Assembly (NCBI RefSeq): GCF_016587355.1 | Contig: NZ_BNJF01000001.1 | Location: 2,988,501 to 3,052,500 of the forward strand | DNA length: 64,000 nucleotides | Direction of reading: 5' to 3' | Source of the DNA: Ktedonospora formicarum | GTDB lineage: Bacteria > Chloroflexota > Ktedonobacteria > Ktedonobacterales > Ktedonobacteraceae | Shown: piece after piece, positions 37,515 to 60,837 of the stretch | Position numbering within the stretch: the first letter of the stretch is position 1 | Layout of the letters: every line of letters starts with the position of its first letter | The notes under the pieces: model-generated | Seen by the model: only the letters and a program-made list of their open reading frames with translations | The model's database searches: none | Told to the model about the DNA's origin: nothing | Translations under genes and position numbers: made by a program

Positions 37515-37626
37515 TGGAAACCAATGCCGCTGACGCGCTCAGGTGTTCGGTGAGGCGAGAGCACTAGCTGCTGTGAAGGCAGTGTTGGTTTTTGTAGCAA
37601 CAATCGCGCTCAGGCTTTCAAATAGG
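37515..37626 (+). repeat. Dispersed intergenic repeat, locus at 37.5 kb
   Basis: A composite: GGAAACCAATGCCGC with GCGCTCAGGTGTTCG, then an inverted left half ending GTGTTGGTTTTTGTAGC, then a right end GCGCTCAGGCTTTCAAATAGG. It lies between the PP2C and kinase genes. Confidence 0.6.
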
Positions 37627-37679
37627 ATGTAACCTGTCATAGTGTAGAGCTTTGTGAAGAAAGGTTTAGTGCGTGGAGT

Positions 37680-39716
37680 ATGGCTCTCCCAATCGGTACA
37701 ATACTCGATGGTAAATTTAAGGTTGCGCAGATCCTTGGCGAAGGTGGTATGGGAACCGTCTATAAGGTCGAGCAGCTTGGGACAAATCCTCCTTACTATT
37801 ATGCAGTGAAAGAACTACTCATCAGTTCCAACACCAGCGAGGAAGAGCGTAATCAATCCATTGAGCGCTTTAACAAGGAGATTGCGCTGCTACGTAGCCT
37901 GAAGCATCCGCGTATTGCGGCCTTGATGCTACCATTTCAGGACCGTGGGAACTACTACTTCGCCATGGAATTTGTGCCGGGTCGCAGCCTGGAGAAGATT
38001 CTTGAGGATAGTAAAGGGCCGCTACCAGAGGAACAGACCATCAAGTGGATGATGCAGGTTTGTGAGGCGTTGAGCTATATTCATTCGCGAAATCCACCCA
38101 TCATCTTGCGCGATCTCAAGCCGGGCAACATTATGATTACGCCTGATAATGAGGTCCAACTTATTGACTTTGGAATCGCGCGTCGTTTTGACCCCAACAA
38201 GCGGACTAATACAGAGAATCTTGGCACAATCTCATACGCATCCCCAGAGCATCTGGGCTCGATCACAGCCCCAGGACAACGCCGCTCCGCGCACAACCCT
38301 GGTCGACCAGTGCAGACTGATGCGCGGGCCGATGTCTATTCATTGGGTGCGACGCTCTATCACTTGCTGACAAACTACGAGCCTGATCCAATTCAGACAC
38401 CTGCTCCCGGTAGCGTTCTGGCAAAGAATCCCAAACTTTTAACCCGTGAGGTGAATGGTAAGCGTATCTGCCCTGTTGAGCAGGTTATTATCAAGGCTAT
38501 GCAACAGGAGCGTGAGCAGCGCTTTCAGAGCGCGGACGCGATGCGCAACGCCTTGCTCTCCTGCCTACCCGCTGAGGTGCAAGCGCGGGTAGCCTCACCA
38601 ACTGTACAGATACCAGCGATGTCGCCTGCTGCGACTGTTGTGGTGAAAGCGCAACCATCCCTCTCCGCACCGGCATCCGGGCCTGTCTGTCCCCGCTGTG
38701 GTTTTCAGAATCGTCCAGGGGCCAAGTTCTGTAAACGTGATGGCTATCAACTGGTGCAGGGAGCTGTGCCTCCACCTCAGACACGGACACATCAACCAAT
38801 TCAGGCGCGACCAGCTCGCCAGCCGCTTCAGGCTCGCTCCTCCTCTATTCTCGCGCGTCCAGTGACCAACAGTCGGGGTATCCAGGCTCGCCCGGTTTCA
38901 CCCTCCAATGGAGCCACTGCCACGCGTGACCCGATGATACCCTATCGGGCAGGTCTGCAATACTTAAATAGTAAGAACTATGCCGAGGCGGTTAACCAGT
39001 TCAAAATTTCACAGGCACAAGGTGGACCAGTCTATGATATCCTGTATAGCCTTGGGCGTGCCTATCGTCAGTATGGCCTCTCAGTACGTGGCATCGATCA
39101 GAAGCTTTCGCAAGAGAATATGAAGTATGCCGCTGAACAGTTCGAAGAAGCTCTGCGCCATAATAGTTCAGCGTTCAATGCTCACTTCCAGTTAGGCATG
39201 TGCTACCGTGATCTGGAACTGCTCACCCAGGCCGTGCAATCTTTCAAGAAAGCGCTCTCGCTGGCTCCAGATGATGCGGCTGTCTATTACCAACTAGGTT
39301 TGACCTCTCTAGAGCAGGGATCATATCGTGACGCAGAGTCCTACCTGCGTGAGGGTATGCGTCTCAGCCCTGAACATGTGCTGATGATGGTTACGCTTGG
39401 CAGGCTGTATTCCGAAACTCGGCGCGTACCAGAGGCGATTGAGGTCTTGAGGCGTGCCGTCAAGGCGGAGCCGGAATCCTGGGATGCCTGGTATCAACTT
39501 GGGCGCGCCCATATGCGTATGAAAGAGTGGAAGTATGCTGTCAGTGCTCTGGAGCGTGCTCGCCAGACTGGCTCTCAATCGCCTCTCATTTATAGTTCAC
39601 TGGCGAACTGTTACCTCAAGTTGAATAGAAAGGCTGAGGCCCGCCAGATGGTTGATGAGACACTCAAACGTGATCGCAACAATACCGAAGCCTTGCGACT
39701 AGTAAAACAGCTTTAA
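37680..39716 (+). CDS. Ser/Thr protein kinase with zinc ribbon and TPR repeats
   Basis: 678 residues. The kinase domain (about 10-290) has the P loop GEGGMGTVYK, the ATP Lys in YAVKELL (K44), the catalytic loop LRDLKPGN (D145, with Leu in place of the His of HRD) and DFG (D163). It is followed by a zinc-ribbon-like CPRCGFQNRPGAKFCKRDG whose fourth Cys is Asp, a basic RPARQPLQARSS linker, and about six TPR units (425-678) for protein contacts. No membrane segment is present, unlike PknB. The next gene starts 12 bases later, so the two are surely co-transcribed. Confidence 0.93.
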   Translation: MALPIGTILDGKFKVAQILGEGGMGTVYKVEQLGTNPPYYYAVKELLISSNTSEEERNQSIERFNKEIALLRSLKHPRIAALMLPFQDRGNYYFAMEFVPGRSLEKILEDSKGPLPEEQTIKWMMQVCEALSYIHSRNPPIILRDLKPGNIMITPDNEVQLIDFGIARRFDPNKRTNTENLGTISYASPEHLGSITAPGQRRSAHNPGRPVQTDARADVYSLGATLYHLLTNYEPDPIQTPAPGSVLAKNPKLLTREVNGKRICPVEQVIIKAMQQEREQRFQSADAMRNALLSCLPAEVQARVASPTVQIPAMSPAATVVVKAQPSLSAPASGPVCPRCGFQNRPGAKFCKRDGYQLVQGAVPPPQTRTHQPIQARPARQPLQARSSSILARPVTNSRGIQARPVSPSNGATATRDPMIPYRAGLQYLNSKNYAEAVNQFKISQAQGGPVYDILYSLGRAYRQYGLSVRGIDQKLSQENMKYAAEQFEEALRHNSSAFNAHFQLGMCYRDLELLTQAVQSFKKALSLAPDDAAVYYQLGLTSLEQGSYRDAESYLREGMRLSPEHVLMMVTLGRLYSETRRVPEAIEVLRRAVKAEPESWDAWYQLGRAHMRMKEWKYAVSALERARQTGSQSPLIYSSLANCYLKLNRKAEARQMVDETLKRDRNNTEALRLVKQL

Positions 39717-39728
39717 AAGGAGGGCAGA

Positions 39729-41675
39729 ATGCTCTGTCCGTCATGTCATACACCCAATCGCGCCAATGCCAAATTCTGTAAGGGTTGTGGGCAGGTTTTG
39801 CCAGCCGAGCAGGCTCAAGAGATTGCGCCCTCTGAGGCTGTCCAGCCTGCACCCAACACTGCGCCCGCTGAGCCTGTAGCGGAGGCATCTCACCCAGCTA
39901 TGCCTGTGGAGGAATTGGATGAGACGCTCGCTTCCAGCGAAGAGGACGACAAGGTGATTGAGGTAGTCGTGTCAGAGCCTGCCCCCCAGGAGCAGGAGGA
40001 AGACCTCAGCCAGGCACCGACGCAAATACTCTCACCAGATAAAATGGTGCAATACCAGACACGCCGCTGGCAGCAAGAATTGGAACGTCAACCTCACGTT
40101 GGGGGAGCGGACATCTCCGATATACCAACTATGCTGATTACACCAGCACCCAAGGAAGCGAGCGCGAACGAAACATCCGAGATATTAACTGATATCTCAG
40201 TACAGGATATCTCTGAGGCACCTACCATCTTGATGGATATCTCTGAGAGCCCCTCCGTCCCTCGCGCACTTGCGGAAGATTATAGTACTGTTCCCATTCT
40301 TCCCACTGCCACTGGCGGCGAGGCTACTACAGATCAGGATAATAATGAATTGGAGGCGCAGGCGCCAAGCGCTACACCCTCCACTGGAAATGCAGAGGTT
40401 GTAATGGAGCAGGTGACACCACCTTATGAGGATCGTCCAACTGAGCAGGAACCACAGAGTATTCCTGCCCCCCCACCGCCTGAGCAGGAAACTCCACAGA
40501 GCAATAACGAAGAGATTTCCCAAGAGAGCAATACGGCACTGGTGGCAGGTACGCTTTTGAATGAGCGGTATGAGATTACCGAACTGCTTGCGGAAGACCA
40601 GCAGAGTCGTCTCTACAAGGCTGTGGACCGTCAAGGTTATAAGCGCTGCTGGAACTGTGGCTCAACCGATAACCTGAAAGATGATGAGTTTTGCATTAGC
40701 TGCGGCGCGGAATTACTGAATGCTACCTATAATGTGCGTGAGTATCTTGCCTCTACGGAGGAGCAGGTTGATACCCCCTCTGGGTCTGGTTCATCACTTG
40801 ATACTTTCACCGCAAATGGACATACCTATGTTATCGAGCAGCAGCAAAGCTTGCAAGCATCATTCCCAACTGGCGTACATGTGCTAGCCGCCTGCGATTC
40901 AGACGCGGGCAATATGCGTCGTGGCGAGCCTAACGAGGATAGTACGCTCGTATTGCAGTTGCAGCGCGTCCATGAATCTCTCTCGGCTCCGCTGGGCCTC
41001 TATATCGTCGCTGATGGAATGGGTGGTCACGATCAAGGCCAGCTCGCCAGCCGGATTGCTATCCGTACAATCAGTGATTTCATCACGCGCGAGCTCTTGT
41101 TGCCCTCACTCACGACAGATGATGCTACTCAGGAGCCCCAGCAACGTGATGAGAATGATTTGGTTGAGTTACTGCATAACGCGGTAGAGAACGCTAATGC
41201 CAGCATTTGCCAGGTGAATGAGGCCAAGCAGAGTGATATGGGTTGCACCATCACTGGTTTTATGCTGGTAGGGGATTTTGCGTATATTCTCAATGTAGGG
41301 GATAGTCGCACTTATCTTCTGCGTGACAGCAAACTCTACAAACTCACGACTGATCACTCGCTTGTGGGGCAGTTGGTCGCTGGTGGCATCATTGAGCCAG
41401 ACGAGGTATATACCCATCCTCAGCGTAATCAGATCTTCCGTAGCCTGGGCGATAAGCTCAACGTACAGATCGATATTATCAAGCAGCAGGTACATCCAGG
41501 TGATGTCTTGCTGAGCTGTTCGGATGGTCTCTGGGAAATGGTGCGCGACCCACAGATTGAAGAGATCTTAAATAATGCACCCGATCCACAGATCGCTTGT
41601 TCACACTTGATTGAGACCGCCAACATTAACGGGGGCGAAGATAATGTAAGCGCTGTCACGGTGTTTGTGCGTTAA
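39729..41675 (+). CDS. Zinc ribbon / degenerate kinase N-lobe / PP2C fusion protein
   Basis: 648 residues with an unusual order. Residues 1-22 are a zinc ribbon (CPSCHTPNRANAKFCKGC). Residues 25-270 are acidic and Pro-rich, with repeats of ISEAPTILMDIS type. At about 274-303 GTLLNERYEITELLAEDQQS plus RLYKAVD copies the start of a Ser/Thr kinase domain, but with the P-loop glycines lost and the rest absent. A second ribbon (CWNC...CISC) lies at about 307-334. PP2C fills 384-648: NEDS, VADGMGGHD, GCTITGF, NVGDSRTYLL, SDGLWEMV and GGEDNVSAV. The phosphatase should be active and the kinase part cannot be. It probably acts on the kinase encoded immediately upstream. Confidence 0.9.
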   Translation: MLCPSCHTPNRANAKFCKGCGQVLPAEQAQEIAPSEAVQPAPNTAPAEPVAEASHPAMPVEELDETLASSEEDDKVIEVVVSEPAPQEQEEDLSQAPTQILSPDKMVQYQTRRWQQELERQPHVGGADISDIPTMLITPAPKEASANETSEILTDISVQDISEAPTILMDISESPSVPRALAEDYSTVPILPTATGGEATTDQDNNELEAQAPSATPSTGNAEVVMEQVTPPYEDRPTEQEPQSIPAPPPPEQETPQSNNEEISQESNTALVAGTLLNERYEITELLAEDQQSRLYKAVDRQGYKRCWNCGSTDNLKDDEFCISCGAELLNATYNVREYLASTEEQVDTPSGSGSSLDTFTANGHTYVIEQQQSLQASFPTGVHVLAACDSDAGNMRRGEPNEDSTLVLQLQRVHESLSAPLGLYIVADGMGGHDQGQLASRIAIRTISDFITRELLLPSLTTDDATQEPQQRDENDLVELLHNAVENANASICQVNEAKQSDMGCTITGFMLVGDFAYILNVGDSRTYLLRDSKLYKLTTDHSLVGQLVAGGIIEPDEVYTHPQRNQIFRSLGDKLNVQIDIIKQQVHPGDVLLSCSDGLWEMVRDPQIEEILNNAPDPQIACSHLIETANINGGEDNVSAVTVFVR

Positions 41676-41823
41676 TGCCTCGAAGCTTTTATGCTTACCA
41701 GGGATGCTGCCACTGCGCTTTCTTTAGAGGTCGTAAAGCCCGTTATTGTGGTTAGCGCTGCATGATCTGGTTTGCGAGTGGGGAGCAAGAGGATTCATGC
41801 CGATACGCTCGAGAAGCGTGTTA

Positions 41824-41832
41824 TGATATACT
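41824..41832 (+). promoter_or_regulatory. Extended -10 element before the VWA gene
   Basis: TGATATACT, 34 bases before the ATG; the -35 is weak. It would give the VWA gene its own start. Confidence 0.4.
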
Positions 41833-41866
41833 ATGGACCAGCCGAAGGCGAAAGGAGCTGATAGAT

Positions 41867-43105
41867 ATGCCCGGAGAGGTATCACTAACATCGCAAGTAG
41901 GGAAAGAATATATGCCCGTCACTGGCGGAAGCCAGCTTGCTTATGTCCTGTTCGAGACACAACCCTCGGATGTCATGGCTCAGGTGCGTATGCCCCTCAA
42001 TTTCTCATTGGTCATCGACCATTCAGGCTCGATGAAAGGGGCCAAGCTACGCAATGTAAAAGAAGCTGTCAAACTTGTTATTGATCGCCTGGAGCCTACC
42101 GATTACATTTCAGTCATCATTTTTGATGATACAGCACAAGTCATCATTCCATCCATGCCAGCCAATGATCCAGTGGGGATGAAGGCCGCGATTGACCGCA
42201 TTCAAGATGCGGGTGGCACAACAATGTCATTAGGTATGATCCAGAGCCTGGGCGAACTCCGCCGCTGGAATATTCCGAATGCCGTGAGCCGCATGATTTT
42301 GTTGACCGATGGCGTCACCTATGGCGATACCGACCGTTGCCGCCAGCTGGCACGTGATGCCGCCGCCGCTGGAATTTCCATTTATCCCTTGGGTATTGGT
42401 GCCGACTGGGATGAGAATCTGCTAGATGACGTTGGGCAACTGAGCGGTGGCATGCCAGCGGAGTTTATTCGTTCTCCAAATGATGCCATGAACATCTTTG
42501 AGCAGCAGGTACAGAGCGCGGTCGCCGTTGCTGTGCGAAACGCTGTGCTAACGCTTAATCTTCCTGCGGGCGTCTCACCACGCAAGGCCGTGAAAGTCCT
42601 GCCACTCATTCGCGATATTGATGCTTCTGCGCTCTCTGACCGCCGTGTTGTTGTGCCGTTAGGAGATCTGGAGAGGGATACCCCGCAGGCAGTCCTGGTT
42701 GAGCTAATGCTTGACCCTCGCCCGGCTGGTCTCTTCCGTATCGCTCAGGCTGAGCTTTCATACGATGTGCCGATCACCAATGTTATTGGCGAGCGTATAC
42801 GTCAGAATATCACTGTGAGCTTCTCTAATGATGCCAACCAGACATCTCAGGTAAACGCGCTCGTCATGAACTATGCCGAGAAGGCTAATGCCAATCGTCT
42901 GGTGACCCGTGTGCTGGACGAGTATAAGCGCACTGGCAAGGCCACAACGAAACTTGCTCCCAATGTGACCCGTGTGCTTGATCAGGAGACTCAATCAGCC
43001 CTCGAACAATTAAGTCAGGGCCAGTCAATCTCGCAGGAGCAGGTTAAATCGATTGGTAATAAGACCCGTAAACTTACTCAGCGCCTCGATGACTTGCTCC
43101 CGTAA
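41867..43105 (+). CDS. von Willebrand factor A (VWA) domain protein
   Basis: 412 residues from the ATG at 41867, which has AAAGGAG nine bases upstream; the frame continues upstream to 41762 without support. The MIDAS metal site is intact: DHSGSM (residues 51-56), the Thr in AGGTTMS and LLTDGVTYG. After the VWA domain come a beta-rich part and a helical tail (QSISQEQVKSIGNKTRKLTQRL). There is no signal peptide, so it is a cytosolic adaptor. With kinase, phosphatases and FHA as neighbours, a role in assembling phosphorylated complexes is plausible. Confidence 0.9.
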   Translation: MPGEVSLTSQVGKEYMPVTGGSQLAYVLFETQPSDVMAQVRMPLNFSLVIDHSGSMKGAKLRNVKEAVKLVIDRLEPTDYISVIIFDDTAQVIIPSMPANDPVGMKAAIDRIQDAGGTTMSLGMIQSLGELRRWNIPNAVSRMILLTDGVTYGDTDRCRQLARDAAAAGISIYPLGIGADWDENLLDDVGQLSGGMPAEFIRSPNDAMNIFEQQVQSAVAVAVRNAVLTLNLPAGVSPRKAVKVLPLIRDIDASALSDRRVVVPLGDLERDTPQAVLVELMLDPRPAGLFRIAQAELSYDVPITNVIGERIRQNITVSFSNDANQTSQVNALVMNYAEKANANRLVTRVLDEYKRTGKATTKLAPNVTRVLDQETQSALEQLSQGQSISQEQVKSIGNKTRKLTQRLDDLLP

Positions 43106-43174
43106 GCATTGGCATCGTACGCAGTTTTTTTCGCGCAGATGCGTACCTCCAAAGGTCACATATGCCTGAATCTT

Positions 43175-43298
43175 ACGAAACCTGAGCGCGGTTGCTCTTA
43201 CGAATCCTAATGCCGCCTGGACGGCGGCTAACGCAGGCGCGCTCAGGTATTCGAACGAAGAGTTCGCGCTAGCCACGAAAGTGGCGTTGGTTTTGTAT
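43175..43298. repeat. Dispersed intergenic repeat, composite locus at 43.2 kb
   Basis: A full forward copy CGAATCCTAATGCCGCC ... GGCGGCTAACGC ... GCGCTCAGGTATTCG (43201-43254). It is flanked on the left by an inverted right end (CGAAACCTGAGCGCGGTTG) and on the right by an inverted left half (GCGCTAGCC ... GGCGTTGGTTTTGTATGAG). Confidence 0.7.
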
Positions 43299-43362
43299 GA
43301 GACCTTAACCTTACAACAGATATGCCGATACACACATAGAGAAGAGGAAGGACAGAACAACA

Positions 43363-44013: not shown

Positions 44014-44073
44014 AGGCTTGTCTCAATTCCCTATTTATGGGATGCGCCGTAGTTTCACTCTCGGCGCAGAGAA

Positions 44074-44102
44074 TTGACAGCATACATAATACTCGCTATA
44101 AT
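44074..44102 (+). promoter_or_regulatory. Consensus promoter of the rpmH operon
   Basis: TTGACA, 17-bp spacer, TATAAT: a perfect sigma-70 type match, with a leader of about 135 bases before rpmH. No DnaA boxes are seen in the upstream 230 bases. Confidence 0.85.
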
Positions 44103-44243
44103 CTACGGGATATTGAAAGTGGAGGTTCAGGAACCCGATCCTTTCAGAGAGGATAAGCTTGCCTTCGTGTAAGCCTGGACCTGGCCAGATTCGGCCCCCC
44201 TTTTAGAGTGCAGATTCTGGCGAGTCTCCACGACGGAGGTTTT

Positions 44244-44378
44244 ATGAAACGTACTTGGCAACCCAAGCGCATCCCGCGTAAGCGCGAACATGGTTTTCTG
44301 AAACGCATGTTTACCCGTAATGGGCGCCGCGTCCTCAAAGCTCGTCGAGCTAAAGGTCGCTGGAGCCTGACGGTTTAA
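44244..44378 (+). CDS. rpmH: 50S ribosomal protein L34
   Basis: 44 residues, very basic, with the complete family sequence: [38 protein letters not shown] and an RWSLTV end. A GGAGG SD is five bases before the ATG. L34 binds 23S rRNA in the large subunit. It is the first gene of the rpmH-rnpA-yidD-yidC-jag cluster. In most bacteria dnaA lies divergently upstream; here a zinc-ribbon/FHA gene takes that place. Confidence 0.96.
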
Positions 44379-44401
44379 CTCTAGCTAGTAGGATAGCCTG
44401 A

Positions 44402-44845
44402 ATGGCCCTTCCTCGTGCTGGACGCTTACGCAAAAATGGTGATTTTCAGCGGGTTAGGCAGCGGAGGCAAAGCGTTTCGTCTCGGCTGCTTATACTCGCT
44501 TGGTCGCCCTGTGGCGACTCAACTCTGGCTATTAGCCGGGTGGGCTTTGTGGTGAGCAAACGCATCGCCAAAAATGCGACCACCCGTAACTATATTAAAC
44601 GCTTGCTCTCCGAGGCAGTCAGGTCACTCGGACATGAGATCCCTCAGGGTCTCGATCTTGTCTTGAGTGCGCGTCCTCAAATTGTGAGCACTGACTCTCG
44701 CACGGGCAAACGCTTTGTCGTTACCGATCTTTCTACGTTGAAACAGGATATTCGTCTCTTGCTTCGTAGAGCGCATCTCTTGGTCACTGCTTCAGCGGTG
44801 AGCGATACAAGTTTTCATGAGCATCCCAAAGGTTCCCAGCTGTGA
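44402..44845 (+). CDS. rnpA: Ribonuclease P protein component
   Basis: 147 residues, basic. Binds RNase P RNA and helps process the 5' ends of tRNA precursors. The family motif KRIAKNATTRNYIKRLLSEAVR (in two parts: RN and KRLL) and the N-terminal LPRAGRLRKNGDFQRV are clear. The C-terminus is about 30 residues longer than usual (LVTASAVSDTSFHEHPKG). The stop overlaps the GTG of yidD by four bases (GTGA). Confidence 0.95.
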   Translation: MALPRAGRLRKNGDFQRVRQRRQSVSSRLLILAWSPCGDSTLAISRVGFVVSKRIAKNATTRNYIKRLLSEAVRSLGHEIPQGLDLVLSARPQIVSTDSRTGKRFVVTDLSTLKQDIRLLLRRAHLLVTASAVSDTSFHEHPKGSQL

Positions 44846-45072
44846 AATACATTGCACTTGGCTTGATTCGCTTGTATCAACGCACGTTGTCGGTTGTCAT
44901 GCCTCCATCGTGCCGCTTTACACCCTCGTGTTCCCATTATGGATATGAGGCAATTGAACGTTTCGGCTTCTTCCGTGGAGGATGGCTGACCATAAAGCGC
45001 ATCGGACGCTGTCAACCTTTTTATCACGGTGATCCCTACGATCCCGTTCCAGAAGTCTGGCCGGTTAAGTAG
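44842..45072 (+). CDS. yidD: Membrane protein insertion efficiency factor
   Basis: 76 residues with GTG start overlapping the rnpA stop. The family core is LIRLYQRTLS, PPSCRFTPSCSHYGYEAIERFG and RIGRCQPFYHGDPYDPVP with its three conserved cysteines. YidD assists YidC in inserting proteins into the membrane, and its gene sits between rnpA and yidC in most bacteria, as here. Confidence 0.96.
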   Translation: MKYIALGLIRLYQRTLSVVMPPSCRFTPSCSHYGYEAIERFGFFRGGWLTIKRIGRCQPFYHGDPYDPVPEVWPVK

Positions 45073-45098
45073 GGGGAGAGGAACGCAGGAGTAAACTC

Positions 45099-46151
45099 GT
45101 GTTTGAGGCTATCGGTCATCTTTTTAACATAATCTTTTCGTTCCCCATCGTCAATGCCCTGGTGGTGCTCTACCGCCTCTTCGGCGACTTTGGCCTGGCT
45201 ATCATTGTCCTTACCGTCCTTATCAAGCTCATCTTATTCCCTCTGACTCTGACGCAGTTGCGTTCCTCCAAGGCGATGCAGGTGCTTCAGCCAAAGATCG
45301 CTGAAATCAAGAAGAAGCATCCGGGCGACCTTCAATCGCAGTCGCTGGCTATGAACCAGCTCTATAAAGAGCATGGCGTGAGGCCTATGGCGGGTTGTCT
45401 GCCCATGGTGATTCAGCTTCCCGTGCTCTGGGGCCTCTACTATGCCGTCGGCGCGATTCTGCGCGATCCCAAGCTAAATGTTATTAATAGCGAACTGTAT
45501 CCTTTCATTACGCCATTTAAGCAACTTCCCAATATTGACCTGAACTGGTTCACGTTCATCAATCCCGCCTGGCATATTTCGTTGGGGCAGCCTGATCCAA
45601 CGCACATCCTGCCAATCCTGGCTGGCCTTGCGACCTTCGTCTCCCTGCGCATGGCTCAGCCTCGTAATGCCCAGGCGAACAAAGATAAATCCAAGAGCAC
45701 ACCTGATCCCATGGTCCAATCAATGCAGACCATGCAGTATGTAATGCCATTTGTGACCATCTTTATTGGTTGGAGCTTCCCGGCTGGCCTGGCATTATAT
45801 TGGACCGTTTCTTCGGTCTTCCAGGCCGTTCAGCAGTACTTCGTCACTGGTTGGGGTGCCCTGCTCACTACACCTAAATTTTCTACTGAGCCAAAAGTTG
45901 CTCCCGCTGTAGTTGAGGGATCGCTATCCAGTGAGACTTCCAGTAAGAAGCAGCGTGAAAAGGATCTATTGCGCCGCTCCAACATTGAGTCAACCGATGC
46001 ATCCAAGGAGACAGAGAGCGCTCGCGGCCCAGTTGCCAGTCAGATGCGCTCTTCCAATGGTTCCGCAAATCAGAATTCGCAGCGTCGACGCTCACGCAAT
46101 AATAGCGCTTCTGCTCGCCGCCGTGGTAGCGCTCAACGTTCGCGAGGCTAA
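45099..46151 (+). CDS. yidC: Membrane protein insertase YidC/Oxa1 family
   Basis: 350 residues with GTG start and AGGAG nine bases before it. This is the short Gram-positive-like form without the large periplasmic domain. The hydrophobic core has FGLAIIVLTVLIKLILFPLT, carrying the conserved Arg-binding groove region, then KKHPGDLQSQSLAMNQLYKEHG, the Oxa1 signature GCLPMVIQLPVLWGLYYAV and FPAGLALYWTVSSVFQAVQQ. The C-terminal 80 residues are Ser/Arg-rich and positively charged, as in forms that contact ribosomes directly. Confidence 0.94.
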   Translation: MFEAIGHLFNIIFSFPIVNALVVLYRLFGDFGLAIIVLTVLIKLILFPLTLTQLRSSKAMQVLQPKIAEIKKKHPGDLQSQSLAMNQLYKEHGVRPMAGCLPMVIQLPVLWGLYYAVGAILRDPKLNVINSELYPFITPFKQLPNIDLNWFTFINPAWHISLGQPDPTHILPILAGLATFVSLRMAQPRNAQANKDKSKSTPDPMVQSMQTMQYVMPFVTIFIGWSFPAGLALYWTVSSVFQAVQQYFVTGWGALLTTPKFSTEPKVAPAVVEGSLSSETSSKKQREKDLLRRSNIESTDASKETESARGPVASQMRSSNGSANQNSQRRRSRNNSASARRRGSAQRSRG

Positions 46152-46159
46152 GATCTTAT

Positions 46160-46214
46160 GCGAAAACTAGCCCGTTTCTCGGGCGCGCGGTTAGCGCTCA
46201 GGTTTTCGAATAGG
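46160..46214 (+). repeat. Dispersed intergenic repeat, locus at 46.2 kb
   Basis: CGAAAACTAGCCCG-TTTCT-CGGGCGCGCGGTTAGCGCTCAGG-TTTTCGAATAGG. CGAAAAC and the TTTTCG end form terminal inverted repeats. It lies between yidC and jag. Confidence 0.7.
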
Positions 46215-46332
46215 TAGTTAAGCTTGATTGATTGCAGCCTACCTCCTACTGCTCTGGATTGCACAGTGGGGTAGGTTGTAATCTTTACTTATAAAGTTTA
46301 TTTCTGACGTTATTTAGGGAGGCAAGGAAACT

Positions 46333-47286
46333 GTGGAAAGTATAGAGGCTAGTGGCAAGAACATAGAGGATGCTGTTCAGCAGGCCCTGGCTCGTCTGGG
46401 CAAACGCCGTGATGAGGTTGATGTGCTGGTGCTGCAAGAGCCTTCTCGTGGTACCTTTGGCCTGGGAAGCAAAGATGCGCGTGTTCGCGTGACTGCTCGC
46501 TCTTCCTCTGCCACCACCCCAAGCGGGGCGGTCATCACTCCCGAGATGGCCGATGCCATTCTCGGCTCCCATAACGATCTCGCCGATGTCGAACTCTATG
46601 AAGATGAGGATGAAGGCGAGGAGGATGAGGAGTATGTCGAGGATGACCTGGTCGACGAGTATGAAGACGATGAGGAATTTGAGGACGAAGAGGAGGAGGA
46701 GGATGAAGAGGGTGAGATGCCTTTTATTCCCTCTAATACTTTCCCTTCCCCAGTCTCTCTAGCTGAGCAAGAGGAACCTGCTGAGCAAGCAGGCGGTGCG
46801 CTTCCGCTTGTTGAGAATCCTTCGCGTGAGGACATTGAGATTACTGTTGATGTCTTGCAGCATATCCTGCGTTACATGAATATCCGTGCCACTATTCAGG
46901 TGCGCTCTACTAGCCCCCTTACGCTGAATATTCATGGCATGCATGAGAACCTTGGTTTGCTGATCGGCCGCCGAGGAGAAACTCTGGCTGCCCTCCAGCT
47001 GCTTGTCAACTTGATTGTCAGCCATCGAACCCGCCATCGTATGCGTATCATTGTCGATGCTGAAAATTATCGCCAGCGGCGCGAGGAGAACCTTCGCTCG
47101 CTCGCTCAGCGGGTCGCTCAACAGGTGCGTAGTTATCGACGTTCTATTGCTCTGGAAGCTATGCCTCCACATGAGCGGCGCATTGTTCACCTGGCTCTCT
47201 CTGAAAGCGGCGATATCAGTACTGAGAGCATTGGCGAGGGAGATCAGCGGCGCGTAGTTATCTCGCTCAAGCGTCCTGGGCGCTAG
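46333..47286 (+). CDS. jag: Jag/KhpB-type RNA-binding protein
   Basis: 317 residues, GTG start with AAGGAAA upstream. An N-terminal Jag_N domain (SIEASGKNIEDAVQQALARL ... GTFGLGSKDARVRV) leads into a very acidic linker of about 45 residues (roughly 90-135, mainly Glu and Asp). A KH domain (LGLLIGRRGETLAALQLLVN) and an R3H domain (RREENLRSLAQRVAQQV ... PHERRIVHLALS) follow. The protein binds RNA and influences cell division or envelope growth in Firmicutes. The acidic linker is longer than usual. A terminator follows. Confidence 0.94.
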   Translation: MESIEASGKNIEDAVQQALARLGKRRDEVDVLVLQEPSRGTFGLGSKDARVRVTARSSSATTPSGAVITPEMADAILGSHNDLADVELYEDEDEGEEDEEYVEDDLVDEYEDDEEFEDEEEEEDEEGEMPFIPSNTFPSPVSLAEQEEPAEQAGGALPLVENPSREDIEITVDVLQHILRYMNIRATIQVRSTSPLTLNIHGMHENLGLLIGRRGETLAALQLLVNLIVSHRTRHRMRIIVDAENYRQRREENLRSLAQRVAQQVRSYRRSIALEAMPPHERRIVHLALSESGDISTESIGEGDQRRVVISLKRPGR

Positions 47287-48814: not shown

Positions 48815-49558
48815 ATGATCGATCTGAATGATCCTACGCTTCAAGAGCGTCTGTTGCGCCGCACTCCGGAAGGGCGCTATGAAATCAGCGAGATCGAACT
48901 GGTAAAGAGTATGCGAGCCCTTCAGTCGGCGGGCAATACCACCGGTGTGCACCTGCTGGCGGAAGTCTTACTACAGCGTTGTGCTCCACTCTTTCAGCGC
49001 CACTCTCAGGGGTTGCGCCATCGTCCCGATTTGCGTGAAGAGGTGATCTCGAACATGAGTGAGCATCTGTTGAGAGAGGCCCTCGATCCGAAAGAGGTGT
49101 TTATTACCCAGAACTTCATTCACTATTTGCGTTGTCTCTGCGTTGATGAGTTCAATCGTGTCCTGCGCCAGGAAGGTCTCTACTATCGCCGTGATGAAGA
49201 AGGGCGTCCATCTGGTCGACCCCAGCACGTCCCGCGCTCACTGGTGGAATCGCTACGCCCTGCCGCATCTGATGATGAAAGCTCACCCAATGCTGACGTG
49301 GCCGATCCACATGACCAGTATGAACAGATGCATGCTATTGATGAGAGCCAGCGCATTTTAACCTACCTGAGTGATCCCCTGGATCGCATGATTATGGTCT
49401 TGCGCGCGATAGAGGGGATGAAGTGGGATGATATCGCCGTCGTTTGTAAGCGCACTGAGCGTACCGTACGCTTGCGTTATGAGCGCGCTCGGGGCTATTT
49501 ACGCGAATGTATTGCGCGTGAACACCAACTTGCATATCCACCAATGATTTCGCAATAA
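48815..49558 (+). CDS. RNA polymerase sigma factor-like protein
   Basis: 247 residues. The C-terminal part is a sigma region 4 helix-turn-helix: DRMIMVLRAIEGMKWDDIAV followed by CKRTERTVRLRYERARGYLREC. The middle (HRPDLREEVISNMSEHLLRE ... FITQNFIHYLRCLCVDEFNRVLR) could be a diverged region 2. A 60-residue polar linker separates them. It would be an unusual ECF-type sigma factor or a DNA-binding relative. AGGGAG is close to the ATG. The HTH protein gene 108 bases downstream is probably its partner. No transmembrane anti-sigma factor is near. Confidence 0.7.
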   Translation: MIDLNDPTLQERLLRRTPEGRYEISEIELVKSMRALQSAGNTTGVHLLAEVLLQRCAPLFQRHSQGLRHRPDLREEVISNMSEHLLREALDPKEVFITQNFIHYLRCLCVDEFNRVLRQEGLYYRRDEEGRPSGRPQHVPRSLVESLRPAASDDESSPNADVADPHDQYEQMHAIDESQRILTYLSDPLDRMIMVLRAIEGMKWDDIAVVCKRTERTVRLRYERARGYLRECIAREHQLAYPPMISQ

Positions 49559-49569
49559 GAAGGTTTCTA

Positions 49570-49630
49570 TGAAAAACAATGCCGCCTGGATGGTGGCTGG
49601 CGCTCATACGCCCAGATTTTCGCATTAAAG
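49570..49630 (+). repeat. Dispersed intergenic repeat, locus at 49.6 kb
   Basis: TGAAAAACAATGCCGCC-TGGAT-GGTGGCTGGCGCTCA, then CGCCCAGATTTTCGCATTAA. It fits the family consensus and lies between the sigma-like gene and its HTH neighbour. Confidence 0.65.
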
Positions 49631-49666
49631 AGCAGGGTCGAGCAAGGCGCGAAAGGATGTTATAAG

Positions 49667-53031: not shown

Positions 53032-53050
53032 GAGCCTCATTATATGCTAG

Positions 53051-53095: not shown

Positions 53096-53117
53096 GAATT
53101 CTCAAATTGCCTTAGAT

Positions 53118-53166
53118 GGCGAAAAGCTCTGAATTTGTCGTGCTGAAAGAAATTCAGGGCTTTTCG
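53118..53166. other. Second hairpin behind ffh
   Basis: CGAAAAGCTCTGAATTT and AAATTCAGGGCTTTTCG pair over about 17 bp with one interruption. It may be a back-up terminator. The remaining 290 bases to 53455 show nothing certain. Confidence 0.5.
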
Positions 53167-53455
53167 TGTTATGATTTGAGAGATATCGCGATGTAATAGA
53201 TAGAAAGGATGAGAAAGACGCTTCTCTGCGAGCGGACTTTGTGATATTCTTAGCTTTCTCGACGAATTGTAATATATAAAAGTACTGAGTACCGCAAAAA
53301 ACTCAGTTATGTATCGTCTCTATGTCAGGAACATATCCAAACATAGATATTCTGTGCTCAATCTCTACGCTATATCGAAATGTTTTTATGTTTTTGCCTG
53401 GTCTCGCGACCAAATAAATATATAAAGTTCTATTGTTTTTTCAAGGACACACAAG

Positions 53456-55240: not shown

Positions 55241-55285
55241 CGGGCCACTTGTTTCTTAAAAAACATTACAGGTCCTTTCCTTTGG

Positions 55286-55325
55286 AAGAGTCGCTGAGAA
55301 TGCGCATTCTCGGCGACTCTTTGTC
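55286..55325. terminator. Near-perfect loopless palindrome after the YkuD gene
   Basis: AAGAGTCGCTGAGAATGC and GCATTCTCGGCGACTCTT meet without a loop (one wobble), followed by TTGTC. Confidence 0.7.
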
Positions 55326-55389
55326 ACTCTTGCATTTTTGTATATTTTGTTGCGTTAATATAGGGTGGACTGAGCGAAGCGTGTCTTCT

Positions 55390-55430
55390 CACAATGCGCA
55401 GCGAGAGCGGCGTTGATTTTCGCAGAAGAC
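55390..55430 (-). repeat. Dispersed intergenic repeat, half copy at 55.4 kb
   Basis: On the minus strand: TCTGCGAAAATCAACGCCGC ... GCTGCGC, the left half of the family element, directly before the next gene. Confidence 0.5.
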
Positions 55431-55470
55431 CTTGGAAAGATTGGTTGTTCCTCCGGGAGGCCGCCCACGT

Positions 55471-56538
55471 ATGCGCCATCTTACATCTCAGAAACAGGTG
55501 CCGCTTGATATCCTGGGCGCGGCGATAGCGTATCGTCTTGGCATACCAGAAAAAGTGTTTGAGACGCGTGGAGAGCCGTTGATCTTTCGTTTTATCGGCT
55601 TTGCTAGCCTCTTCATTGGTTGCCTCATCATCTTGATCTTTATTGTGGCATATGGGCAACTCTTTAGCTGGTGGCTGCTCTGGCAGGCATTATTTATTCC
55701 CCTTATAGGTGTGTCGTGGTTCATCTTCGGTGGTTGGGTCTTGCTGGCTCCTCATGTCTATCCCCAACCTCATGTCTATATGTGTCCTGAGGGGCTTATT
55801 TTCATTTCCGATAAACTTGAGGTAGTGAGGTGGGATCAATTGGAGCGATTGTGGCAGGAAAGTGATGGGAAAGCCCAGGGCAGGCGTCGTTATATAGTGC
55901 GTCGGAGTGATGAGACCTTACTGTCGTTTGGTAGTGAGCTTGCTGGAGTTGAGTATCTAGTAAAAGCAATCGAACAAGAGCTTACACGGCGCCTCTTACC
56001 ACGCGCGCTAGCCGCGTACCGCGTGGGCGCGAACGTCTCTTTTGACGAGATTGTTGTGAGCAAGCGTGGTCTGCGCTTGAGTGCTAGCAAGCGGATGCTC
56101 CTCTGGGAAAATCTGGGCGAACTGGTTATAGACCCGCAAAATATAATAGTTCACGAACAGCACTTAAGCAAACCAGCAGCGCGCATCAAGGCGTTTCGTG
56201 TTCCCAATATGCATATTCTTCGCCAACTTGTAGCCTATGCACGCCAGGAACGCGCTCTAAGTGCTAAACCATATGTTGCCGCCTATATATCTGGTCGACC
56301 GCTTTCCTTTGGTAAGCTAAGAATAAGTCAGCAAGGTATACAGATTGAGCAGGAACAGCCAGTTACTCTCCCCTGGCAAGAGATTGGAGCGATTGGTATT
56401 GGAGCGAGCGAACTGATGATAGCGCGTCAGAGGGAGCAGCAAACATATGAATGGTATGTCGTCTCATTGTGGGAGATAACCAATCTTGAGCAGTTGCGCG
56501 ATGTGGTGGCATATGTGCTCCAAAATGGGCCTCGGTAA
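55471..56538 (+). CDS. Membrane protein of a DUF6585-like family (copy 1)
   Basis: 355 residues from the ATG at 55471, which has GGGAGG ten bases upstream; the frame is open back to a TTG at 55432. Two hydrophobic segments (FIGFASLFIGCLIILIFIVA and a WLLWQALFIPLIGVSWFIFG type) are followed by PH-like beta repeats: YMCPEGLIFISDKLEVVRWD then VSFDEIVVSKRGLRLS, and a third similar unit (LSFGKLRISQQGIQIEQEQ). The gene at 56813-57604 has the same plan. The family name is my best recollection; the function is unknown. Confidence 0.6.
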   Translation: MRHLTSQKQVPLDILGAAIAYRLGIPEKVFETRGEPLIFRFIGFASLFIGCLIILIFIVAYGQLFSWWLLWQALFIPLIGVSWFIFGGWVLLAPHVYPQPHVYMCPEGLIFISDKLEVVRWDQLERLWQESDGKAQGRRRYIVRRSDETLLSFGSELAGVEYLVKAIEQELTRRLLPRALAAYRVGANVSFDEIVVSKRGLRLSASKRMLLWENLGELVIDPQNIIVHEQHLSKPAARIKAFRVPNMHILRQLVAYARQERALSAKPYVAAYISGRPLSFGKLRISQQGIQIEQEQPVTLPWQEIGAIGIGASELMIARQREQQTYEWYVVSLWEITNLEQLRDVVAYVLQNGPR

Positions 56539-56617
56539 AATATGTGATGCAATTCATATCGATCTGACACACATGATATTATAATAATCTATAACTTGTA
56601 AGATTATTTGTCAGTGA

Positions 56618-56708
56618 TGGTTAGCATCGCTCAGGCAACTGAAGACATGTTGTAAGACAGTCATCAACGCCGCCAGTAGGCGGCTAACATCGCCCAGACG
56701 ACTGAAAG
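56618..56708 (+). repeat. Dispersed intergenic repeat, double locus at 56.6 kb
   Basis: A right end GGTTAGCATCGCTCAGGCAACTGAAGAC, in two pieces, is followed by a fuller copy AACGCCGCC-AGTA-GGCGGCTAACATCGCCCAG-ACGACTGAAAGG. It lies between the two related membrane-protein genes. Confidence 0.6.
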
Positions 56709-56812
56709 GCCGCACATGGGGTTTCCTCATATGTGCATATTTGCTTTCTGGATGAATCTGTTTATTGCCTATCTTGGTAAGAGAGTGTTTTTTAGAGGAG
56801 TAAGGAATTATT

Positions 56813-57604
56813 ATGTCTAATCAAATGTACCAGCAGCCTTACGCACAGGCTCCCGGCGCAACTGAGGGAGCAGTGCCTGGCGAGGTGTATCAACAGGCCG
56901 AAATGCAGCGTCTTGGATCGCTTATTCGCGTATTCAAACCTACTAGTATCTGGGTGGCTCTGGCAATTTCCGCTGGTGTCCTGATTCTAGATCTTGGGCT
57001 GATGTTCGCGCTGTGGTTGGCCGACCGGATAAGCATATACCTACTCATCGTACCTATATTCTTGATTGTCTATGTTGTGAACGCTATTAGAAGCAACAAT
57101 CATAAAGCCTATCTCTACCAGGAAGGTTTCATCTATGCTAACGGCTCACAACTTCATGCTGTGCGCTGGGACCATGTAGAGGCTGTTTGGCAGAAGCAGG
57201 TGAGCTACTCTATCTGGTCCACGCGTAGCACCTATACTGTTAAGCGCCCAGATGGTGCTCAGGTGGTTATTAGCAGCCATGTACATAAGGTGCGGGAATT
57301 GGGTGATGCAATTCTGAACGAGGTGACGAAACGCCATCTCCCATTGGCTCAGCAAGTGTACAATAGTGGCGCCCCTGTTCCTTTTGGCAATTTGAGCATT
57401 GGTATGCAGGGAATTGGTTTCAGAGACAAACTATTACCCTGGCCGGAAGTTAAAGATGTAGTGATTGTGAATGGACAGGTGCAGGTCAAGAGGCAAGGGA
57501 ACATGATTAACTTCGCGACGGTCCAGGTTGCTGATGTCCCCAATCTGCCTGTGATGATGCAATTGGTGGCGAATGGGTTACGTAGCGTGCCGCCGATGCG
57601 CTAA
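56813..57604 (+). CDS. Membrane protein of a DUF6585-like family (copy 2)
   Basis: 263 residues. After a Gln/Ala/Pro-rich N-terminus come two hydrophobic segments (IWVALAISAGVLILDLGLMF and YLLIVPIFLIVYVV) and two PH-like beta units: YQEGFIYANGSQLHAVRWDH and VPFGNLSIGMQGIGFRDK. The match with the gene at 55471-56538 is visible in HAVRWDHVEAVWQ versus EVVRWDQLERLWQ, and KRHLPLAQQVYNSGAPVPF versus TRRLLPRALAAYRVGANVSF. AGGAG is upstream of the ATG. The function is unknown. Confidence 0.6.
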   Translation: MSNQMYQQPYAQAPGATEGAVPGEVYQQAEMQRLGSLIRVFKPTSIWVALAISAGVLILDLGLMFALWLADRISIYLLIVPIFLIVYVVNAIRSNNHKAYLYQEGFIYANGSQLHAVRWDHVEAVWQKQVSYSIWSTRSTYTVKRPDGAQVVISSHVHKVRELGDAILNEVTKRHLPLAQQVYNSGAPVPFGNLSIGMQGIGFRDKLLPWPEVKDVVIVNGQVQVKRQGNMINFATVQVADVPNLPVMMQLVANGLRSVPPMR

Positions 57605-57632
57605 TATCGCGCTGGGACGTCCTATAAGAGCT

Positions 57633-57683
57633 AGACACATAGAAGGGAGCTACCCCATAGGGATAGCTCCCTTCTATGTGTCT
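57633..57683. terminator. 20-bp perfect hairpin between convergent genes
   Basis: AGACACATAGAAGGGAGCTA and TAGCTCCCTTCTATGTGTCT enclose an 11-base loop. It serves the DUF6585-like gene and the GH57 gene. Confidence 0.8.
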
Positions 57684-57691
57684 CTAAGTGC

Positions 57692-59173
57692 TTAGAAGTG
57701 AAGAGGGAAAGGGGGGAGCAGGCCATCTTCGACGGCTGGTAACTCCTTGTAGAGATCGACACCATTCTTCTGGGTGCGCCAGCTACGTGCTGGAAGGAGA
57801 TCTTGCAAGAAATCATATTGGAGATCAACATCGATAGCCTGCCAGATGAGGCTAATCGCGCGACGTGCGAAAGCGATTCCATTGCGGGGCTCAATGCGAT
57901 CAAGATCCTCAAAGAAGAAGGCGCAACTGGTGAAACTATACTGTTGATAGTACTGAGCCTCCAATAGCCGTTGGGCTCGATATTCGAGCAAGGCTGAGGG
58001 ACGCTGACCGCCCTTCCCGTGCCGCGTCCAGAAGCTCTCTTCGCTCTCCCAGCCATTGCGGAGCGCCAGATAATCATTACGCGCCGCCCAGGGATCTTCT
58101 AGAATCTCGGAAGCATATTGCTCGAAGAGCAGATCACCGCGTTCAGCCAGGCGTGAGAGGGCACGCCGTAGGACGGGTTTCCAATTGCTCTCTCCCTCGG
58201 TACAAGAGCAACCTGTACCCCAGCGTGCTACTCCATGCTCACAACTCCAGGCGCTCGGCACCCGTAACTGAACCTCTTTTGTTGGGGGCTGCAATAGCAT
58301 ATAGCGTTCAAGAGTACAGATCTCGAAGCCCTCTTCAGGTGCTCCATGCTGGATCAGATGTGAGAGAAACTTGTCACGCCAGGGCTTATGGTGTCCATAG
58401 AGCTCGCCATCAGTCGCTATGAGAATCAGTTGCGGCTCTCCGTTATCGATCTTCTCGCGTACAAGATGCCCAGGCAGGTAGGAAGACGCAAAGACATCGG
58501 CATTACTGGTAGAGGCCGAATCAAAGGAGACTCCACCTGAGAGTGGGCCATTGTAGAAGAAGACCGTCATCGAGCGCCCACTCTTGAGCGGCACAGTATA
58601 GGGTTCTGTCGGATCAATTGCTGTGGCTGCCTGCCAGGGAGCTAGTACCGTGTAAGTTACTCCATATTGGGCTAGAATATCGAGACATTCCAGGTCGATA
58701 GCTGTTTCCGCCAGCCACATCCCATGAGCATCACGTCCATAGCGGTGGCGGAAGTCTTGCAGGCCCCAGAGGATCTGGGTGTGCTTATCACGCGTTGTTG
58801 CCAGGGGCAAGATTGTATGATTATAGGCCTGTGCCATGGCATTGCCAACACCATAGCGTTCCATATGCTTTCGGTCCGCATCAATAATCAATTGATGGAC
58901 ATCAGGTTCATGTGCTTCGAGCCAGGCTGCGAGCGTGGGACCTAGATTATAACTGATCTCAGCGAAATTCCCCTCTTCTGCATTAGGACGGTAGCATTCC
59001 GCAGTGATTTTCTCGTTATAGTTAAGAAATGGAGCAGCACCAGACTCTATAGGTATTTCATGTGTAAAAGGGTTTTCGCGAGGGGGTTGATAGAAATGGC
59101 CATGTAAGCAGAGGTAAGTGGAACCCAGCTTGGAACGCGATATTGAACCATTGGGAAGTGTTTTCTCGATCAT
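57692..59173 (-). CDS. Glycoside hydrolase family 57 protein
   Basis: 493 residues, no signal peptide, so cytosolic. GH57 landmarks: LHGHFYQPPRENPF near the N-terminus, GMWLAETAID with the probable nucleophile E156, and LIATDGELYGHH with the probable acid/base D255. The C-terminal half contains WSCEHGVARWGTGCSC and corresponds to the domain attached to the DUF3536-type GH57 branch. Members act on alpha-glucans as amylases or branching enzymes; the exact reaction cannot be told. AAGGTGG precedes the ATG. Confidence 0.9.
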   Translation of the reverse strand: MIEKTLPNGSISRSKLGSTYLCLHGHFYQPPRENPFTHEIPIESGAAPFLNYNEKITAECYRPNAEEGNFAEISYNLGPTLAAWLEAHEPDVHQLIIDADRKHMERYGVGNAMAQAYNHTILPLATTRDKHTQILWGLQDFRHRYGRDAHGMWLAETAIDLECLDILAQYGVTYTVLAPWQAATAIDPTEPYTVPLKSGRSMTVFFYNGPLSGGVSFDSASTSNADVFASSYLPGHLVREKIDNGEPQLILIATDGELYGHHKPWRDKFLSHLIQHGAPEEGFEICTLERYMLLQPPTKEVQLRVPSAWSCEHGVARWGTGCSCTEGESNWKPVLRRALSRLAERGDLLFEQYASEILEDPWAARNDYLALRNGWESEESFWTRHGKGGQRPSALLEYRAQRLLEAQYYQQYSFTSCAFFFEDLDRIEPRNGIAFARRAISLIWQAIDVDLQYDFLQDLLPARSWRTQKNGVDLYKELPAVEDGLLPPFPLHF

Positions 59174-59628
59174 GCAACCACCTTTTAGGTCCCAGGCGAA
59201 AACCTATCCCTATTTGTGGGAACGGCGTCACTAGCATTAGCATGCCAAGTTTTCGCATAAGAACTACTGGTCCAGAGCCGAAACAGCGTTCGTCTACCTG
59301 GACTTACTCTACAATAACGTCACTCATCAATAATGGTAGCAGAGTCAAGAACAATGGGACAATCAATCTACCAATATTGGGAGGCTAATCGGCGTTTTGG
59401 GCGACCCGGATAACTATTAAATGGGTCGCCCATCTTCACCAATGATTGTGTTTGCCCTCATAGCAAATACGTATTGAAGAGTCTTGGTAGATGCAGATTG
59501 ATTGGGTAGGGGGAAGAGCAATAAGCTTTTCTTCCCTACCAAAGAAGACGAATAAGATCGTAGTAATAAACGCAGACTACATTCATGTATGCATTGCTAC
59601 ATCACGCAAATGTATTAGGATACCCTAC
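59174..59628. other. Intergenic region with a GC hairpin, about 455 bases
   Basis: GGGCGACCC (59399-59407) and GGGTCGCCC (59423-59431) form a 9-bp hairpin that may end the HNH transcript, but there is no T tract. No ORF or other feature is convincing. Confidence 0.35.
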
Positions 59629-60174
59629 TCAGGCGCTAAATGCTTTAGCAGATCCTCCATGAAATGTCGTAAGAAACTCCTCATATGCGGCGCGTAGCTT
59701 CGGATAGCGCAACAGGAAGACTCCTGCGTATTCTGTTGTCAGCGGACGAGGTTGATGCAGCAGACGCATGTTGACGTCCTTCAGCAGGTGGTTGCTCTTT
59801 TTGCCGTTGCAGTATCGGCAACACGCGACAAGATTCTCCCAAGTGCTCTGTCCGCCGCGAGAGCGTGGAATGACGTGATCAAGCGTCAATTCGCGCGTGC
59901 GCTTGCCGCAGTACTGACAAGTCTCTTCATCGCGTAGCATAATATTCGCGCGTGTTGGCTGGAGAGCCATACGCGGAATGCGCACGTTGGCAAGTAGCTG
60001 AACGATAACAGGGCGTTCGAGCTCCAGGCGACGGGCGCTAATGCTTTCCTCGATCAGGGAGCGCACACTCTCATCGACGAAGGTAACTTTCTGCTTCGAC
60101 AACAAGACAATTAAGCGGCGCTCTGGAATGACCGAGAGAGGCTGTAGCGAGGAGTTCAATACAAGAACAGGCAT
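59629..60174 (-). CDS. HNH endonuclease family protein
   Basis: 181 residues from the ATG at 60174, which has AAAGGA at the right distance; the frame extends to 60213 without support. The N-terminal half (PVLVLNSSLQPLSVIPERR) is typical of chromosomal HNH proteins found in many bacteria. The HNH site is ETCQYCGKRT, then LTLDHVIPRSRGG and WENLVACCRYCNGKK, with two CxxC pairs binding zinc. It could cut DNA in repair or act on incoming DNA; the cellular role of this widespread subgroup is not settled. No mobile element surrounds it. Confidence 0.9.
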   Translation of the reverse strand: MPVLVLNSSLQPLSVIPERRLIVLLSKQKVTFVDESVRSLIEESISARRLELERPVIVQLLANVRIPRMALQPTRANIMLRDEETCQYCGKRTRELTLDHVIPRSRGGQSTWENLVACCRYCNGKKSNHLLKDVNMRLLHQPRPLTTEYAGVFLLRYPKLRAAYEEFLTTFHGGSAKAFSA

Positions 60175-60491
60175 GAATATTCCTTTCCTCTCTGTCAGAG
60201 CCGACACATACACAGACAGCGAGGAGAGGCAGAAAGGTTATGGAAGTGATGGAGAATACTTCCAGTCCCTTTCGCTTCTACCGCCGTCTATGACGACCAA
60301 GCGGATAGGGGTGAAGAAATCTTGCATGTCCAGGAAGGACAGGCACAACAGGGTGTATCTCACCTATACCATCCCTGGTATGCATGATACCCGAAATGGC
60401 ATGAGGGGAAGTGATGGTGCAGACCATAGAATCGGTCTGCATTGTACACAACCTGAGAACCCGCATGTTAGGAAAACTCCTTAGTGCCTGC

Positions 60492-60605
60492 AAAAAAAAA
60501 GCGGCACATACTCATCACACTGAAGGAACAGTTTTCTGTTTTATCGACCTTATACATCGATACTTCCTTCGCTCCCCTTATCACCTAAGGGGAAGAGTAT
60601 GTGCC
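60492..60605 (-). ncRNA. Structured RNA element with terminator, directly after tRNA-Pro
   Basis: On the minus strand an 11-bp outer stem (GGCACATACTC / GAGTATGTGCC; 60595-60605 with 60503-60513) encloses three branches: CCCCTTA/TAAGGGG, then GAAGGAA/TTCCTTC, which itself holds TATCGA/TCGATA and AACAG-AAAA-CTGTT. GC and nine T follow (60492-60500). It begins nine bases past the tRNA 3' end. It may be an elaborate terminator or a small RNA co-transcribed with the tRNA. No known class was recognised. Confidence 0.5.
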
Positions 60606-60613
60606 TTACCTGG

Positions 60614-60687
60614 TCGGGGTGAGAGGACTTGAACCTCCGACCTCAGCGTCCCGAACGCTGCGCGCTAGCCGACTGCGCCACACCCCG
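60614..60687 (-). tRNA. tRNA-Pro (anticodon CGG)
   Basis: Acceptor CGGGGTG/CACCCCG with discriminator A. The D arm contains GGCGCAGTCGGCTAGCGC. The anticodon stem CAGCG/CGCTG carries the loop TTCGGGA, giving anticodon CGG (reads CCG). The T arm GGAGG-TTCAAGT-CCTCT is regular. CCA is not encoded. 74 bases. Confidence 0.96.
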
Positions 60688-60778
60688 AAAGTCTTCCATG
60701 CAAATGCTTTATCGCACCGCACTTATCCGTTTTGAGCAAGCTTACTCAATTTCCAGGTTCGACCACTAAAACCTTATA

Positions 60779-60837
60779 AGAAAACCAACGCCACTGGCGT
60801 GTCTAGCGCTAACGCGCTCAGGTTTTTACATAAGGAG
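60779..60837 (+). repeat. Dispersed intergenic repeat, locus at 60.8 kb
   Basis: GAAAACCAACGCC-ACT-GGCGTGTCTAGCGC, then TAACGCGCTCAGGTTTTTACATAAGG. This is the cleanest single copy: AAAACC and GGTTTT are its inverted ends and CGCC/GGCG its inner stem. Confidence 0.7.

Follow-up and report, generated by a model that had tools for sequence, protein, structure and literature searches.

A family of short intergenic repeats in Ktedonobacter, probably a MITE with IS1031-type ends and a folded core

Repeat copies in the window and in the genome

The window analyzed here, a stretch of 64,000 nucleotides, derives from a 10.67-Mb, Ktedonobacter-like genome. It contains a signaling region whose products match PP2C, Ser/Thr kinase, VWA and FHA domains (Pfam), and, at positions 44208 to 46333, a likely rpmH-yidC-jag gene order (60KD_IMP for yidC, R3H/Jag_N for jag, with rpmH read from orthologous stretches), an order often encountered close to the replication origin. 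Gene calls came from a simple finder made for this analysis, and start positions are thus approximate. Scattered between these genes is a short repeat, which the initial annotation had reported as shared by at least eight intergenic loci. Seven of the eight named loci were found to hold copies or half copies, as detected by model R1 and a sequence profile; the eighth, at 56618, possesses the same core enclosed by other outer arms (CAGTCATC/GACGACTG), unlike the canonical ones. The copies are listed below, with coordinates taken from unfiltered R1 hits unless another source is given; the half copies at 55398..55429 and 37601..37626 were detected by the sequence profile but not by R1.

60767..60840, + strand: full-length element, the best copy in the window (TAAAACCTTATAAGAAAACC...GGTTTTTACATAAGGAGTAG); R1, 81 bits, and profile
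46149..46220, + strand: full-length element; R1, 55 bits
43189..43265, + strand: full-length degenerate element, part one of a composite; R1, 42 bits
43244..43307, - strand: inverted partial copy overlapping 43189..43265 in the composite; R1, 20 bits, and profile
43178..43198, - strand: right-end fragment (AAACCTGAGCGCGGTTGCTCT), part three of the composite; inverted repeat I24
49558..49634, + strand: full-length degenerate element; R1, 41 bits
59185..59267, + strand: degenerate copy, absent from the initial annotation; R1, 30 bits
19293..19376, - strand: degenerate copy with a longer loop; R1, 28 bits
37503..37560, + strand: shortened copy, core partly deleted; R1, 25 bits
37601..37626, + strand: solo right end (GCGCTCAGGCTTTCAAATAGG); profile, repeat family D1
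55398..55429, - strand: half copy, left end (CTTCTGCGAAAATCAACGCC); profile, E 4e-4
56650..56712, + strand: re-armed relative with the same core (CAGTCATC AACGCCGCC..GGCGGCTAACATCGCCCAG ACGACTG); arm test and R2 match L073:5150-5212, 55 bits

The exact word GAAAACCAACGCC occurs once in the window (at 60780), the other loci carrying degenerate forms. The copies at 43178 to 43307 form a three-part composite, and composite, tandem (66 to 72 bp) and half copies are common in the family at large.

Further copies are abundant outside the window. The core GCGCTCAGGTTTTCG, with at most one mismatch allowed, has 182 matches genome-wide versus a single match for the reversed pattern, while a profile search (E<1e-3) of a 1.2-Mb survey of the same genome identified 89 copies; the reversed sequence gave none, and a Markov shuffle a single weak match. 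These controls exclude chance and confirm that the repeats in the window belong to a real family. All but one of the 89 survey copies are intergenic in sequence of which 21% is non-coding, in keeping with the placement between genes originally noted, and scaling from the survey gives an estimated 400 to 580 copies per genome. Among exact core matches, 44 of 57 are located on C1, the largest contig of the assembly; contigs C3, C4, C6, C8 and C11 combine an abundance of IS5-type transposases with few exact core matches or none.

The family is confined to Ktedonobacter and one genome of a sister genus within the same family (G022). Across 84,980 species, a set from which the window's own genome was possibly left out, the exact two-part pattern was found in Ktedonobacter only, and the same search of viral contigs and of plasmids returned nothing. 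Model R1 gave 150 or nearly 150 matches, among the matches listed, for G022 and for each of G000 (the window's genome) to G003, the further copies lying in three Ktedonobacter species and G022; eleven other genomes yielded 0 to 2 matches. The initial annotation knew of no described family with this consensus, a statement with which our searches agree: Rfam covariance models detected only tRNAs in the window and nothing at E<1 for positions 60700 to 60900, and no paper linking Ktedonobacter with REPs or MITEs was found among the open-access papers searched.

Mobility and a candidate partner insertion sequence

The element is 66 to 70 bp long and has no coding capacity. Its terminal inverted repeats read G[A/G]TCTTATNCGAAAACC and GGTTTTCGNATAAG[G/A]AG, the pair CTTATNCGAAAACC / GGTTTTCGNATAAG also being observed, and sequence logos display sharp boundaries of the form TAA-GGTCTTATRCGAAAACCAACGCC ... 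CGCTCAGGTTTTCGNATAAGGAG-TAA. Evidence of movement was obtained from three species of the genus to which the window's genome belongs, K. racemifer DSM 44963, K. robiniae SOSP1-30 and Ktedonobacter sp. SOSP1-85, whose genomes are 94 to 95% identical to each other. Numerous elements occur in only one or two of these species and are missing from the others, in which the empty site closes up, so that filled and empty sites differ by exactly one element; an example is CTC-TCA-[GATCTTATCCCG..GAGAAGTAG]-TCA-CTAG, which is represented by CTC-TCA-CTAG in both other species. Split alignments revealed inserts mostly of 69 to 72 bp, along with others of 87 to 127 bp, many of which contain an extra hairpin, CCCCCATTCGGGG. 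Target duplications of 3 bp (TAA, TCA, TAT, TAC or GTA, the last three of which deviate from strict TNA) are present at approximately half of the polymorphic sites and are ambiguous or mutated at the remainder. Among the survey copies, the left and right outer triplets are identical in 19, versus 11 in shuffled data (p=0.0016). In G022, about 20 copies share an identical score, and both of the two copies that were read are flanked by TAA..TAA, which together point to recent movement in that genome.

Pairing of solitary ends across 2.4 Mb did not reveal an autonomous partner; a candidate was instead obtained from transposase loci. An insertion sequence (IS) of 879 to 910 bp in the same genomes carries 17-bp inverted repeats that match the element ends, the representatives at transposase loci of the window's genome being 879 to 880 bp in length with inverted ends GAGCTTATCCGAAAACC. 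The IS copies L202 and L203 (879 to 880 bp) and L246, L254, L262 and L270 (910 bp) all end in GA[GCT]CTTATCCGAAAACC, and are flanked by TAA..TAA (as in L203) or TTA..TTA duplications, except for L202, which displays TAA/TTA. Seven copies of identical score in G026 possess ends GA[CT]CTTATCCGAAAACC and TAA or TTA duplications, and an exact scan located inward-facing end pairs approximately 0.9 kb apart in both the window's genome and G026. The encoded transposase harbors DUF4096 (PF13340) and DDE_Tnp_1 (PF01609) domains, and also matches PF13586. Open frames are retained in the K. racemifer copies; every copy in the window's genome is decayed, and only relatives are known to have intact ones. 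Among the loci read in G022, only remnants of the matching IS were seen, despite the recent burst of the element.

The partner IS fits the IS1031 subgroup of the IS5 family as that subgroup has been described, namely, with TNA targets, 3-bp repeats and, in the member ISLrh, 17-bp inverted repeats and a length of 857 bp (PMC12016507). It shares with the subgroup a 17-bp inverted repeat starting with GA, a 3-bp TNA-type duplication and an IS4/5-family DUF4096 plus DDE transposase, its own length being 880 to 910 bp. The repeats themselves are unlike IS1031 members in that they encode nothing and have only the ends in common, and the inverted repeat GAGCTTATCCGAAAACC differs from that of ISLrh. 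Because the interior of the element is unrelated to that of the IS, with only the terminal 17 bp or so in common, it cannot have arisen from the IS by simple deletion. Two further IS-related features were observed: a 47-bp palindrome in the window's genome (G000:C1:1894509-1894555), in which two IS1031-type ends abut in inverted orientation (TTAGAGCTTATCCGAAAACC / inverted) with next to no sequence separating them, making it a minimal element, and an IS at 12986 to 14013 of the window, with imperfect inverted ends and a DDE_Tnp_1 / DDE_Tnp_1_3 transposase gene (13012-13959, - strand), two more copies of which, of equal score, are located elsewhere in the genome.

The initial annotation had offered three options for the repeats: a MITE, a REP-like element or a structured RNA module. 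Inverted ends, a short non-coding sequence, target duplications, insertion polymorphism and ends in common with an IS, i.e., the hallmarks of a MITE, are all present, and it is the first option that the empty sites, the 3-bp duplications and the matching IS sustain. We therefore regard the repeats as very probably a MITE family of approximately 66 to 70 bp that is moved by an IS1031-type DDE transposase encoded elsewhere. The transposase would bind the inverted ends of the element, cut it out and insert it at T-rich triplets (TNA-like, such as TAA, TTA and TCA, but also TAT, TAC and GTA), the target triplet being duplicated in the process. TAA-type stop codons would be among such targets, and the duplication would restore the stop codon, so that an element could insert between genes, or at the very site of a stop codon, and be tolerated. 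That this particular transposase mobilizes the element is what we infer, given that the window's genome has no unbroken IS copy and that intact ones are known only from relatives.

The REP-like option, in which REP/BIME-like palindromes would be moved as single-stranded hairpins by a RAYT (Y1 tyrosine) transposase, appears extremely improbable. As in the GTAG and CGTC families of REP/BIME (PMC3733652), the elements are short intergenic palindromes, single or often clustered, with compensating changes in their stems; unlike these, they display no GTAG or CGTC tag at either end of the logo, are accompanied by no RAYT gene and are flanked by target duplications. Y1_Tnp (PF01797) is absent from the window's genome, while control genomes give matches. 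RAYT/IS200-type insertion is not known to produce a target duplication. Furthermore, few elements lie between convergent genes: 4 of 131, when TNA sites would predict 12 (P=0.006).

The repeats resemble other bacterial MITEs moved by IS elements, such as RUP of Streptococcus pneumoniae, in being non-coding, shorter than 200 bp, mainly intergenic and present in many copies, with target duplications and with terminal inverted repeats that also occur in an IS (PMC2229807). They are shorter than RUP (66 to 70 bp versus 107 bp [PMC2229807]) and differ from it in their 3-bp duplications, their IS1031/IS5-type ends and a folded core that is common to other element families. The element, with its IS1031-type partner, is of an ordinary kind; what stands out is its occurrence in a lineage for which we found no described MITE, together with an unusual swapping of arms around a constant core. 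Read as a MITE, the element explains repeats that lie by the hundred between Ktedonobacter genes, and it combines a very small size with a candidate transposase and natural empty sites. It also raises the question of how a folded core stays constant while complementary inverted ends are exchanged.

The folded core and its outer arms

The part between the ends contains two five-pair hairpins. In 36 copies, the three helices (the two hairpins and the outer helix) are 85 to 90% paired, the outer helix at 85%, and both-side changes are observed at 13 of 23 pairs. The covariation score exceeds those of all 500 shuffles and all slides, although the structure was drawn from the very sequences tested, so that the slid controls favor it somewhat. 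The hairpin module CCCCCATTCGGGG(ACAAG) is present in the loops of many elements of the K. racemifer group (e.g., L137, L280 and L313) and varies between orthologous copies at the same insertion site; across three 400-kb stretches of this group, 31 of its 35 occurrences are situated no more than 60 bp from the core word, and a 1.2-Mb portion of the window's genome contains none.

Selection on the core sequence alone retrieved 37 places with the usual arms and six without. Four of the latter possess perfectly complementary arms of unrelated sequence (TGAGCACC, CATTTGCC [twice, in tandem] and CGCTCACC), and a fifth has arms that pair at six of eight positions, while the reversed control of this selection gave no place with complementary unrelated arms. 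A looser search added CAATCGTG, CAAACATC and CAGTCATC arms, which were selected for pairing and are therefore not independent evidence. In total, the same core is found with at least six other outer arms, unrelated in sequence and perfectly or nearly complementary. Arms of the CATTCGCC type have 48 pattern matches in the window's genome and 0 to 3 in others, and the presence of CGCTCACC-type copies differs between genomes of the K. racemifer group. None of the PF13340/PF01609 loci examined contained an IS bearing these other arm sequences.

Such a combination of a conserved core with swapped arms is not explained by transposition through the canonical ends. It could be taken to favor a transcribed structured RNA (a cis-regulator or small RNA) whose three-way-junction fold is selected and which spreads by duplication, as both the covariation and the recurrence of the core with different yet complementary arms would be expected of it. 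We consider this unlikely. GT versus AC mismatches in the two hairpins number 43 versus 22 and 39 versus 34 in the window's genome and 8 versus 12 and 0 versus 5 in relatives, and hence lack a consistent strand bias; orientation relative to genes shows no clear preference (54 same, 41 opposite), Rfam holds no match, and copies do not occupy orthologous positions in related species. The structured module that had been suggested is accordingly upheld as regards a folded core with compensatory changes, while an RNA role for that core is unsupported.

As there is no consistent sign of an RNA strand, copying of palindromes at the DNA level or a structure-recognizing step are left as possible reasons. 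Palindromes may be kept by template switching or gene conversion and not by selection, one strand being copied from the other so that arms and hairpins vary in step. Such copying would complement the MITE reading, for arms and hairpins only, and we advance it as a tentative possibility. Whole arms that differ yet stay complementary, the frequency of composite, tandem and half copies, and the lack of a single-strand bias all agree with such a process, which nonetheless leaves the retention of AACGCC and CGCTCAG and the target duplications unaccounted for. A somewhat more doubtful proposal is that the two-hairpin core of approximately 36 nt (AACGCC-hairpin-TAGC-hairpin-CGCTCAG) has repeatedly been given unrelated complementary arms in the genus, some of the re-armed forms having then multiplied. 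If so, the core would either be portable, recruiting transposase ends of different kinds, or be a structure-recognized unit in its own right, and either version would constitute a kind of mobile element that the papers searched do not describe.

Placement relative to genes

The MITE reading allows for insertion at stop codons, and the yidC-like gene (45099-46151) has as its stop codon the TAA that forms the first triplet of the element at 46149..46220. Targeting of stop codons beyond the target preference was not convincing: the outer triplet coincides with a gene's stop codon in 13 of 70 precisely bounded copies, compared to 8.2 expected from random TNA choice.

In several copies (e.g., L003 and L005), AAGGAG lies a few bases before a start codon, which would suit a mobile ribosome-binding-site or promoter cassette whose right end, AAGGAGTAA, gives a Shine-Dalgarno sequence to the downstream gene. 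This is very unlikely, as start codons are found near the left and right ends in equal measure (17 versus 15 within 60 bp; 5 versus 5 within 25 bp), and the role of Shine-Dalgarno donor was dropped in view of this symmetry. Copies in the window's signaling and yidC-jag regions are not present at orthologous places in three other species, which makes a conserved regulatory role there unlikely; local regulation of the signaling genes by the window copies is likewise unlikely.

Long, near-perfect hairpins with short loops, mostly intergenic, were additionally observed at five sites of the window (32728-32795, 34567-34622, 21121-21173, 24507-24560 and 57633-57683), and are perhaps terminators or members of a second palindrome family.
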